A stretch of DNA of 33,220 nt from Bacteroidota bacterium. Its GTDB lineage: Bacteria > Bacteroidota > Bacteroidia > Sphingobacteriales > Sphingobacteriaceae. The position numbers were made by a program, and so were the translations under genes. Positions 29,115 through 31,491 of the stretch are shown one piece after another. Positions within the stretch are counted from its first letter, which is position 1, and each line of letters opens with the position of its first letter. The stretch lies in the NCBI GenBank assembly GCA_013286325.1, contig JABDFZ010000028.1, positions 1 through 33,220 on the forward strand. The letters run 5' to 3'. The notes below the pieces were generated by a model. That model was not told the DNA's origin and searched no databases. It was given only the letters and a program-made list of their open reading frames with translations.

Positions 29115-29612
29115 ATGGCTAAAAAGAAAAACTTATTCGAGCGGTTTGCTAACTGGGCAACCATTGCAACTGGTAGTTCTGCCGCTTTTATAATAGCAAC
29201 AAGCATAATTATAATTTGGGGAGTTACTGGTCCGGTATTCCAATACTCAAATACCTGGCAGCTCATTATTAATACTGGTACTACTATAGTTACTTTCCTA
29301 ATGGTTTTTTTGATTCAGAAATCACAGAATAAAGATTCGAAAGCTATCCACCTTAAATTGAACGAATTAATTGCATCTCACCAGGGAACAAGTAACCGGA
29401 TGGTAAATATTGAGGACCTTACAGAAATAGAACTTGACCATTTGCATAAATTTTACGTACGATTAGCTAATTTAGCCGAAAAAGAAGGAGATCTCACCTG
29501 CACTCACTCCATAGACGCTGCAGAAGAGAACAACCAAAACAAACTGGATAATTTTAAGCAAAGAAAATCATATAAAAATGCCTCCCAAAGTACAGGTAAG
29601 AAAAGTAAATGA
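29115..29612 (+). CDS. Low-affinity iron permease-family membrane protein
   Basis: A 165-residue protein with a basic N-terminus (MAKKKNLFERFANWATIATG), two membrane helices (about 18-38 and 49-68) and a polar cytosolic tail. LFERFANWATIATGS, the WGVTGPVFQYSNTWQLIINTG loop and FLMVFLIQKSQNKDSKAIHLKLNELI are typical of the low-affinity iron permease family. Actual iron transport by the bacterial members is not established as far as I know. The last 35 bp overlap the GNAT gene in another frame. Confidence 0.88.
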   Translation: MAKKKNLFERFANWATIATGSSAAFIIATSIIIIWGVTGPVFQYSNTWQLIINTGTTIVTFLMVFLIQKSQNKDSKAIHLKLNELIASHQGTSNRMVNIEDLTEIELDHLHKFYVRLANLAEKEGDLTCTHSIDAAEENNQNKLDNFKQRKSYKNASQSTGKKSK

Positions 29613-30006
29613 TCCCATCGATCTTGAAAAAGTTTTTGCTATCCGCCGTGAAGTATTTGTTGGCGAACAAAATTGCCCCCCAGAATTGGAGTGGGAGTAT
29701 GAAGATGAATCCACACACTTTTTAGCAACAGTAGATGGCGAGCCTGCCGGTGCATCGCGCTGGCGTAAAACCGATAAAGGCTACAAATTGGAACGCTTTG
29801 CCGTATTGCAAAAGTTCAGAGGGTTTGGCGTAGGGCAGGAACTGGTAAAAGCCGTCTTAAGTGACCTTCCTAAAGATGCAGGTTATATTTATTTACATGC
29901 GCAGATTCAGGCAGTAACCTTGTATGAGAAATTTAATTTCGAAAAAACCGGACCTGAGTTTGAAGAAGCAGGGATAAGGCATTTTAAAATGATTAAGAGA
30001 AGTTAA
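29578..30006 (+). CDS. GNAT-family N-acetyltransferase
   Basis: A 142-residue single-domain acyl-CoA-dependent acetyltransferase. Key parts are FAIRREVFVGEQNCPPELEW, the beta-hairpin ATVDGEPAGASRWR, LERFAVLQKFRGFGVGQELV with the acetyl-CoA P-loop-like RGFGVGQ, and LHAQIQAVTLYEKFNFEKTG, as in the ElaA/YjcF-type subgroup. The acceptor substrate is unknown. The ATG lies 35 bp inside the end of the iron-permease-like gene, so translation is probably coupled. The stop is followed after 7 bp by a repeat element. Confidence 0.92.
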   Translation: MPPKVQVRKVNDPIDLEKVFAIRREVFVGEQNCPPELEWEYEDESTHFLATVDGEPAGASRWRKTDKGYKLERFAVLQKFRGFGVGQELVKAVLSDLPKDAGYIYLHAQIQAVTLYEKFNFEKTGPEFEEAGIRHFKMIKRS

Positions 30007-30013
30007 AACCCCC

Positions 30014-30140
30014 TGTCATTTCGAACGAGGAACGAGGAGAAATCTTCTGCAACATACAAGGTGAGCTGCTATACAGGTCGGCTACCTGCATGGCGCTAAT
30101 GCCAGTCGTAGAAGATTTCTCTCTGTCGTTCGAAATGACA
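30014..30140. repeat. Gene-less palindromic element, 127 bp (sibling of the GIY-YIG element)
   Basis: The left end TGTCATTTCGAACGA and the right end TCGTTCGAAATGACA are perfect 15-bp terminal inverted repeats. A second pair, GAGAAATCTTCT and AGAAGATTTCTC, follows inward. The centre holds two small hairpins, CAGGT-cggct-ACCTG and TGGC-gctaat-GCCA. Both ends and the adjoining inner sequence (acataca... on the left, atggcg... on the right) match the GIY-YIG-carrying element 53 bp away, but the gene is missing. The element starts 7 bp past the GNAT stop and may also act as a 3'-end hairpin. Confidence 0.85.
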
Positions 30141-30193: not shown

Positions 30194-30621
30194 TGTCATT
30201 TCGACGAGGAACGAGGAGAAATCTTCTACGACATACAGAGCGAACTATGCGGGGTTTTAAGATTCAATAACATCATCGTTCAAAAACCGCCAATTCGGGT
30301 TTTCAGCTTCAATCAGTAAGTTTTTCTTTTCTCTCCTCCACTTTTTGATTTCTTTTTCTCTTTCAATTGCATATTCTATGTGAGTAAAGTGCTCGTAATA
30401 AACTAAGTGATAACAATAATATTTTCCTGCAAATGTATTTTTGCTCCCCTTGTTCTCTTTATGCTCATACAAACGTCTGCTCAGATCGTTTGTAACACCA
30501 ATATATAATACTGATTTATCAAGGTTAGTAGTTATGTACACATAAAAATTATAGTTCCACATAAACTAATTGTATGGCGATGTCAGTTGTAGAAGATTTC
30601 TCTCTGTCGTTCGAAATGACA
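30194..30621. mobile_element. Putative palindrome-bounded element carrying a GIY-YIG nuclease gene
   Basis: The left end starts TGTCATTTCGACGAGG with GAGAAATCTTCT inside; the right end is AGAAGATTTCTC...TCGTTCGAAATGACA. These are the same inverted ends as in the 127-bp element. Inward of the ends, about 15-25 bp more are alike in both (cgacatacagagcg on the left, tgtatggcg on the right). The space between is filled almost exactly by one minus-strand gene (30257-30562). No target-site duplication is obvious; AAG/AAGC follows both right ends. Mobility is inferred from the architecture and not shown. Confidence 0.65.
30257..30562 (-). CDS. GIY-YIG nuclease-family protein inside the palindrome-bounded element
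   Basis: A 101-residue single-domain protein of the YhbQ/UPF0213-like GIY-YIG group. The catalytic set is complete: YVY (7-9) as GIY, YIG at 20-22, Arg29/Arg30 and His34 in SRRLYEHK, Glu69 in EREKEIKKW, and Asn88/90 in NPNW. The family cleaves DNA in better studied members; this small form is often present in many copies in Bacteroidota genomes. The start codon is about 7 bp inside the right-hand inner repeat, and the stop lies just inside the left one. No strong ribosome binding site is seen. It could be the enzyme that moves the repeat ends, or a passenger. Confidence 0.92.
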   Translation of the reverse strand: MWNYNFYVYITTNLDKSVLYIGVTNDLSRRLYEHKENKGSKNTFAGKYYCYHLVYYEHFTHIEYAIEREKEIKKWRREKKNLLIEAENPNWRFLNDDVIES

Positions 30622-30630
30622 AGCATGATA

Positions 30631-31491
30631 TTAACCAAATATCTTTCCCGAATACTCCATCGCCTCCCTGAATTTATCCATATCAAGCCCTGCAGGCTCG
30701 TTTTGTTGACTAAGGTATCCAATTAAGTTTTCTGTAGCGATGTTGCCTGTGAGCTCATCTGCTGCCATTGGGCAGCCGCCATATCCTTTCACTGTTGTAT
30801 CAAAACGCCTGCAACCACTTTTATAGGCTGCATCAATTTTCTCGTGCCAGGTATTTGGTGTAGAATGCAGGTGTATGCCAAACCCGGTACCAGGGAACTG
30901 GTTGCATAATAATGGATAAATGCTATTGATCTGCTCCGCTGTGGCCACACCTATGGTATCTGCCAGGGCAATAAATTTAATGCCTTCGCCAATAAGCTTC
31001 CCGGCCCATTGCTGTACTATGTCTGTGTTCCATTCATCGCCATAGGGGTTTCCAAATCCCATAGACAAATAAACCAATGGCTCCTTGTTTTTGGCTATAC
31101 ATAGCTCTTTAATCCTTTTTACAGTATCAAAGGCTTCATTTATTCCAGTATTTGCATTGCGCTGCTGAAAAGTCTCTGAAATGGAAAATGGGTATCCCAA
31201 ATAGGTTATTTCTTCGTGAACAGCAGCCTCTTCTGCACCGCGGTAATTAGCTATAATAGCAAGCAGTTTTGATTTTGTATTGCTTAAATCAAGTTTACTT
31301 AAAACCTCTTTTGTATCCTGCATTTGAGGGATTGCTTTGGCAGATACAAAGCTTCCAAAATCAATGGTATCAAAACCTACCTGCAGCAATAAATTAATAT
31401 ATGCTGCTTTTAGTTCTGTAGGTACAAACTGATGAAGCCCCTGCATAGCATCACGAGGGCATTCGGTCAATTTTATTTTTGATGAGATCAT
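30631..31491 (-). CDS. Hydroxymethylglutaryl-CoA lyase-type enzyme
   Basis: A 286-residue TIM-barrel lyase. Motifs are LTECPRDAMQG with the catalytic Arg13-Asp14, FGSFVSAKAIPQM, ADTIGVATAEQI, the metal His pair in GIHLHSTPNTW, and GGCPMA (from residue 238, catalytic-loop Cys240) followed by DELTGNIATEN. These are the signatures of HMG-CoA lyase, which splits HMG-CoA to acetyl-CoA and acetoacetate in leucine breakdown. The window also holds leucine dehydrogenase, the first step of that route, though far away. The start overlaps the stop of the preceding ATP-grasp gene by ATGA, so the two are translationally coupled. The stop is 9 bp from the GIY-YIG element. Confidence 0.9.
   Translation of the reverse strand: MISSKIKLTECPRDAMQGLHQFVPTELKAAYINLLLQVGFDTIDFGSFVSAKAIPQMQDTKEVLSKLDLSNTKSKLLAIIANYRGAEEAAVHEEITYLGYPFSISETFQQRNANTGINEAFDTVKRIKELCIAKNKEPLVYLSMGFGNPYGDEWNTDIVQQWAGKLIGEGIKFIALADTIGVATAEQINSIYPLLCNQFPGTGFGIHLHSTPNTWHEKIDAAYKSGCRRFDTTVKGYGGCPMAADELTGNIATENLIGYLSQQNEPAGLDMDKFREAMEYSGKIFG

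Follow-up and report, generated by a model that had tools for sequence, protein, structure and literature searches.

The window, i.e. the whole stretch of DNA that was analysed, covers 33,220 nucleotides and is a contig (G000:C28) of a 61%-complete draft genome of the genus Mucilaginibacter. A small GIY-YIG nuclease gene is found here between inverted repeats, next to a palindrome of related sequence that carries no gene. The features of the locus are:

29578..30006, plus strand: GNAT acetyltransferase, left border of the orthologous site in the between-species site comparison
30014..30140, no strand: complete gene-less palindrome (REP dimer) of 127 bp, TGTCATTTCGAACGAGGAACGAGGAGAAATCTTCT - loop - AGAAGATTTCTCTCTGTCGTTCGAAATGACA, which aligns with 16 other gene-less copies in the same genome
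30194..30227, plus strand: left repeat arm of the gene-bearing unit, TGTCATTTCGACGAGGAACGAGGAGAAATCTTCT, TGTC tag pointing outward
30228..30256, no strand: left loop remnant, from the repeat arm to the gene end; similar by eye to long-loop gene-less copies, not significantly so to the average loop
30257..30562, minus strand: GIY-YIG nuclease gene, 101 amino acids (PF01541, 63.1 bits; AlphaFold pLDDT 92.5; invariant catalytic residues)
30563..30590, no strand: right loop remnant, homologous to gene-less loops by alignment (0 of 1000 shuffles)
30591..30621, minus strand: right repeat arm, inverted, AGAAGATTTCTCTCTGTCGTTCGAAATGACA, tag pointing outward
30631..31491, minus strand: HMGL-like lyase, right border of the orthologous site in the same comparison

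Gene and repeats at the locus

The initial annotation had described a 428-bp unit with inverted ends and a single gene inside, and this is what is seen at 30194-30621. The ends are TGTCATTTCGA../..TCGAAATGACA and GAGAAATCTTCT/AGAAGATTTCTC, and the interior consists of one open reading frame of 101 amino acids on the minus strand (30257-30562). The ends are indeed inverted arms but not simple mirror copies, as the left arm has GGAACGAG where the right arm is shorter, and the left head is without one A. The gene had furthermore been placed about 10 bp from the inner repeat borders; the measured distance is 28-29 bp for arms of 12 bp, or approximately 18-19 bp if the longer imperfect arms are used. 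Each arm resembles a short repeat with a GTC tag, having a weak core of 5 bp (ATTTC/GAAAT) and an unpaired TGTC tag at its outer end, and a single arm folded as single-stranded DNA gave no strong or stable fold.

Overlooked at first was the complete gene-less palindrome at 30014-30140, which adjoins the unit on its left with a gap of 53 bases. As a whole dimer it folds strongly as single-stranded DNA (z -8.2). The head GTCATTNCGA occurs in four copies in the window, all at this locus, where 0.17 are expected by chance. Searching the host genome for the end sequences gave many copies, mostly gene-less dimers: 35 GAGAAATCTTCT sites are present, together with none of the same word reversed, and 17 gene-less dimers of 110-134 bp can be aligned end to end. 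The second GIY-YIG gene of the host genome (contig C40) has complete palindromes of another class on both sides, TGTCATTGCGAG..GGCAATC. No RNA family was found in an Rfam search of the element.

The loops of the gene-less dimers were aligned with the two segments that separate the gene from its arms. For the right loop remnant the mean score was 24.9, a value reached by none of 1000 shuffles (13.6 +- 1.5). The left loop remnant scored 13.5 against the average gene-less loop, which is not significant (shuffles 13.3), and by eye it resembles the loops of the two longer-loop gene-less copies. Judged from these alignments, the unit in the window is best described as a dimer of the gene-less type with a gene in its loop.

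The GIY-YIG protein

A complete GIY-YIG domain with its catalytic residues had been proposed, and both parts of this description hold. The protein matches PF01541 with 63.1 bits (cut-off 22.6), and Y9, G22, H34, E69 and N88 are invariant in 46 homologues, while R30 is nearly so (>90%). Apart from GIY-YIG and the overlapping T5orf172, Pfam reports no domain in the 101 amino acids, and a separate DNA-binding domain such as NUMOD was sought in the same search without a match. The AlphaFold model is a confident single domain (pLDDT 92.5). Structure comparison of the model gave Slx1 as the nearest fold (Z 7.5-7.8, sequence identity 15-18%), followed by UPF0213 1zg2 (Z 7.2, 32% identity) and by I-TevI and UvrC (both Z 5.7). 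Z values below 8 show a GIY-YIG fold and nothing further. The closest solved sequences are UPF0213 (1zg2 and 1ywl, E 7.7e-6).

Other origins were considered for the gene. A defence system was rejected after a PADLOC search without a convincing match (best E 0.004), and so was a phage origin, as PHROGs gave weak matches to homing endonucleases only. NCBIfam returned only a group I intron endonuclease, far under the cut-off.

In-frame stops are present in several Mucilaginibacter copies of the gene, and on the Sphingobium plasmid of TomTYG73 the gene is broken by a 1-nt deletion while both repeats remain; decay of the gene beside intact repeats is thus common.

Association of the gene with the repeats

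Relatives of the gene are found in 88 of 101 genomes of the genus. Among the 111 loci, 81 are bordered by GTCAT hairpins on both sides, a further 22 on one side only and 8 on neither; comparing the two 250-bp flanks of each locus gave a median inverted-repeat score of 58. A displaced-flank control falls mostly inside genes and is too lenient, and UvrC, HMG lyase and other GIY-YIG genes were therefore used as fairer controls. For UvrC in the same genus the hairpins are on both sides in 2 of 19 loci, on one side in 4 and absent in 13 (median score 19). For HMG lyase none of 26 loci has them on both sides and 9 have them on one side. Ten unrelated small GIY-YIG genes of other clades, taken from the same genomes, have no GTCAT hairpin at all (0/10). 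The low values of all three controls mean that it is this subfamily that is paired with the repeats, and not GIY-YIG genes or intergenic space in general. The tags of the nearest repeats point away from the gene in 50 of the 81 loci with hairpins on both sides, i.e. the gene is usually located where the loop of a dimer would be.

The same arrangement is found outside the genus. Hairpins are on both sides in 45 and on one side in 15 of 69 loci from other Bacteroidota. For 79 named loci sampled across the bacteria (Cyanobacteria, Chloroflexi, Deltaproteobacteria, Planctomycetes, Acidobacteria, candidate phyla and others, with three from Mucilaginibacter) the corresponding numbers are 53 and 18. 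Genes without repeats exist, both within the genus (the 8 of 111, e.g. L100 and L105) and beyond it (Rhizobium tumorigenes). The suggestion that the gene would nearly always be found inside or beside such ends is borne out by these counts (81 + 22 of 111 in the genus), and the repeats are not distributed independently of the gene.

A second, related GIY-YIG clade in Mucilaginibacter ('YILLC..', 'QYFVYILLCSDNSYYTGITN..LLPEL'; L346-L352, L355, L359) is flanked by a palindrome class of its own, GTCAxxCTGAG..GTCGAAG, which extends the system beyond the clades analysed. A separate observation concerns an unrelated small GIY-YIG open reading frame (L363, G020:C6:224112-226651, and G020:C8:156709-157621), which is found in an almost perfect tandem triplicate of 350 bp that includes tRNA-like GGGTTCGAACC segments. 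ARAGORN called one poor tRNA, and the reading frame may be a GIY-YIG gene that resides in a tRNA array.

Co-variation of protein clade and repeat class

The repeats were divided into classes by the bases that follow GTCAT (TTC, TGC, CT types and GCC). On the protein tree of the genus, five groups including 'none' require 9 label changes, against 55.6 with shuffled labels. Over all loci from all bacteria the values are 39 and 104.2, and for loci outside the genus 29 and 53.5, neither being reached in 200 shuffles. In the 25 genomes with at least two clades, 57 of 58 genes carry the repeat class of their own clade, and none of 10000 within-genome permutations reaches this number, so that species history cannot explain the co-variation. 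The sole mismatch (L105) lacks inverted repeats in its own flanks (score 18). On sequence comparison, the link between enzyme and repeat put forward in the initial annotation is thereby strongly supported, since the two are associated and the class follows the clade even within one genome. The refuting conditions named in that annotation were examined as well and did not overturn the link.

Besides the repeats that flank the gene, each genome contains numerous gene-less dimers of the class concerned. The number of repeats also varies with the gene. TTC arms have a median of 21 per genome where a TTC-clade gene is present and 2.5 where it is absent (p 1.5e-5). Six genomes (G025, G006, G040, G071, G001 and G099) hold orphan families of 31-73 TTC arms with no TTC-clade gene, which means that the repeats can persist or spread without the gene, or that the gene has been lost.

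Mutual information between protein positions and the repeat core places residues 74-76 (K74, W75, R76), directly after E69 and K73, among the top four as three of them. They read K-W-R with TTC repeats, (A/G)-G-S with TGC and G-W-x with the CT types. This correlation could come from shared ancestry alone. A test on independent pairs had at most 7 supported pairs, with which significance is out of reach, and the residue code for repeat recognition is therefore kept as a lead.

The repeats might merely keep company with the gene, if small intergenic genes acquire them by chance or if an unrelated transposase mobilises both. Repeats are common between genes in this genus and their density is not negligible, as 9 of 52 HMG-lyase flanks carry a GTCAT hairpin. 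However, GIY-YIG genes of other clades that match it in size lack repeats in the same genomes (0/10), and chance can produce neither the 57/58 match of clade and class nor the recurrence across phyla. We regard this explanation as hardly credible, and in its general form, as chance or a simple passenger, it is ruled out by the control genes and the within-genome permutation.

Filled and empty sites

Orthologous sites were compared between species, and both filled and empty ones exist. At the site in the window, between the GNAT and HMGL-like genes, three Mucilaginibacter genomes have the gene (G000, the host genome, G096 and G094), a further one has a gene-less dimer (G052), and three have spacers of 34-83 bp (G014, G048 and G098), of which G014 retains a fragment of TGTCATTTCGA. 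On plasmid AZO_p3 of Azospirillum lipoferum 4B a dimer-gene-dimer lies between sufB and sufC, while A. oryzae, A. ramasamyi and B510 have a short spacer at this position (93.7-94.7% identical); the element splits a gene pair that is contiguous in the relatives. Seven Sphingobium plasmids have the gene between two repeats and that of TomTYG72 has none. Here TomTYG64 and TomTYG74 carry a single hairpin, CGTCACCCCGGGTCAAGCCCGGGGTGACG, a hybrid whose left half comes from one repeat and whose right half comes from the other; it is either an excision scar or an ancestral target. In Shinella, WSC3-e and HZN7 are filled and H4-D48 is empty. Rhizobium CIAT894 was discarded as a filled/empty pair, as an adjoining IS4 copy leaves no clean empty site. 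Sites with the gene, with a repeat only and with neither are thus all found in Mucilaginibacter and Sphingobium.

The contexts of the gene are varied. In draws of 19 loci the TTC clade has 16 distinct contexts, the TGC clade 18 and the CT clade 12, compared with 6 for UvrC; HMG lyase has 7 in 26. In Planktothrix agardhii plasmid p1 a homologue and its repeats have an MmeI-type restriction gene on one side and the DISARM gene drmA on the other. Presence of the gene is patchy across the genus, and certain copies occupy the same site in several species. No two copies within a genome are more than 89% identical, which gives no sign of recent bursts. No target-site duplication was evident by eye at the filled/empty pairs, whose junctions are too diverged, and none of the compared sites caught a transposition event with defined ends. 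The mobility initially proposed is accordingly backed by the filled and empty sites and the many contexts, which are indirect, and not by a defined event; it looks slow and old, by analogy with what is described for RAYTs.

The comparisons bear on two further explanations. One is homing, where a selfish gene would cut gene-less dimers of its class and be copied into their loops by gene conversion, the repeats being spread otherwise. The match of the right loop remnant to gene-less loops, the gene-less dimer of G052 at a site that is filled in G000, G096 and G094, and the single hybrid hairpin of TomTYG64/74 where relatives have the gene between two repeats are all consistent with it, as are the GIY-YIG fold, which is that of homing endonucleases, and the weak matches to homing families. 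However, the whole Azospirillum dimer-gene-dimer is absent from the empty relatives, a gene-less state could equally be a deletion product, and the rise of repeat numbers with the gene is left unexplained. We consider homing unlikely.

The other is a host function. A domesticated nuclease might process REP hairpins or cruciforms (or their RNA), or bind its flanks for self-regulation, with the repeats spread otherwise or long ago. Copies fixed at one site in several species, low dN/dS values (0.04-0.35 in the few usable, unsaturated pairs) and the Slx1-like fold would suit such a role, but the patchy presence and very varied contexts look more mobile than housekeeping, stop codons occur occasionally in the gene, and several clades coexist in a genome, each with its own repeats. 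This is somewhat less probable still than homing.

Relation to CGTC REPs

The CGTC superfamily was defined in five phyla by Di Nocera et al. 2013 (PMC3733652), who name Sinorhizobium, Azospirillum, Novosphingobium, Sphingobium and Neisseria among the carriers. In their survey no transposase gene was flanked by CGTC units and CGTC REPs were without a dedicated transposase; a GIY-YIG gene goes unmentioned (PMC3733652). The superfamily is found in several phyla and includes the dRS3 of Neisseria and the rickettsial RPE-4 and RPE-6.

In a collection of plasmid replicons, homologues of the gene are flanked by canonical CGTC REPs in Azospirillum, Sinorhizobium, Rhizobium (CIAT894, with R. tumorigenes as the exception), Shinella, Novosphingobium, Sphingobium, Neisseria and Aeromonas. 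The alphaproteobacterial, Neisseria and Aeromonas flanks match the published form, and several of the genera or species are listed in the 2013 survey (PMC3733652). Azospirillum lipoferum has full dimers on both sides (CGTCATCCCCGCGAAGGCGGGGATCCA), the Sinorhizobium meliloti flank is CGTCATCCTCGGGCTTGACCCGAGGATCCA, and the Neisseria gonorrhoeae flank is CGTCATTCCCGC..GCGGGAAT, which we read as dRS3. As criteria for a CGTC REP we used a CGTC or TGTC tag, a stem of 8-9 bp starting with AT, a loop of 4-5 nt and a CCA tail. The Azospirillum and Sinorhizobium repeats agree with this definition (CGTC-ATCCTCGGG-CTTGA-CCCGAGGAT-CCA and CGTC-ATCCCCGC-GAAG-GCGGGGAT-CCA). The repeats of the window share with the superfamily the unpaired (C/T)GTC tag, the stem starting with AT, the inverted dimers and the many intergenic copies (PMC3733652), but the arms differ in stem, loop and tail, having a 5-bp core, a long imperfect loop and a CTT end instead of CCA, and they are therefore called CGTC-like and not members.

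Nothing joining a GIY-YIG gene to CGTC REPs was found in the open-access papers searched, though subscription papers and preprints may differ; a 2006 survey of GIY-YIG proteins and a 2025 survey of REPs contain no such link. Strings of the element sequence searched in the text of papers gave only primer coincidences among the matches listed.

Interpretation

The gene probably encodes a nuclease dedicated to a family of GTC-tagged palindromic repeats, the CGTC-like REPs. In our reading the whole is a REP system similar to REP/RAYT, in which an unrelated nuclease that acts by hydrolysis takes the place of the RAYT. The term 'self-moving palindrome element' of the initial annotation is too narrow in that most copies are gene-less dimers, for which reason the gene is better seen as a putative dedicated enzyme of a repeat population.

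We infer that the protein binds, cleaves and mobilises its repeats. It would recognise repeats of its own class, as hairpin or cruciform, by the tag and the stem core, and cut at or near the repeat. GIY-YIG enzymes hydrolyse DNA without joining it, and replication and repair by the host would therefore have to reseal or copy the break. By this route dimers may be copied to new intergenic sites, or a unit may be deleted, and the gene would sometimes be carried along inside or between dimers. What moves may be the palindrome together with its gene, the gene by itself through homing into dimers, or mainly the gene-less dimers.

For a large repeat class said to lack a spreading enzyme, the GIY-YIG gene is the best candidate so far. 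A wider proposal is that a minimal single-domain GIY-YIG nuclease of approximately 100 amino acids reads the stem core through residues 74-76, spreads GTC-tagged palindromes throughout bacteria by cleavage and host repair with no transposase, and is the missing enzyme of the CGTC REP superfamily; our judgement on this is evenly balanced. If it is right, RAYT and an unrelated hydrolytic nuclease have reached the same arrangement by convergence, and the hundreds of proteins annotated as 'GIY-YIG nuclease family protein' gain a function and a predicted substrate. As the candidate is one gene, whose cognate repeat can be read from its flanks in each genome, the question of spread is directly testable, and the diverse protein and stem-core pairs found in nature are a ready set for asking how a nuclease of 100 residues reads a hairpin.

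Comparison with known systems

Slx1, the top fold match, is a structure-specific nuclease for branched DNA, but it is eukaryotic, works with Slx4 and has only 15-18% identity to the window protein. The uncharacterised UPF0213 proteins (1zg2, 1ywl) are the closest in solved sequence and fold and also consist of the domain alone in approximately 100 amino acids; other small GIY-YIG clades of the same genomes are without repeats. The free-standing GIY-YIG homing endonucleases of the I-TevI type share the catalytic fold (Z 5.7) and the mobile gene, whereas the window gene has no intron and no separate DNA-binding domain, and its presumed target is a repeated palindrome instead of one allele.

RAYTs are Y1/HUH transposases of GTAG repeats and act through a covalent intermediate. 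The initial comparison with REP/RAYT systems (REPtron, REPIN) was well chosen, as in both cases one small nuclease gene lies between its palindromes, many gene-less dimers are present in the genome, and several classes of gene and repeat occur per genome, each with its own partner. The only gene of the unit encodes a GIY-YIG protein and no Y1 (HUH) transposase, and the tag is GTC, not GTAG. By analogy the system would work like REP/RAYT, of which it is not a member, having neither the HUH enzyme nor the GTAG tag.
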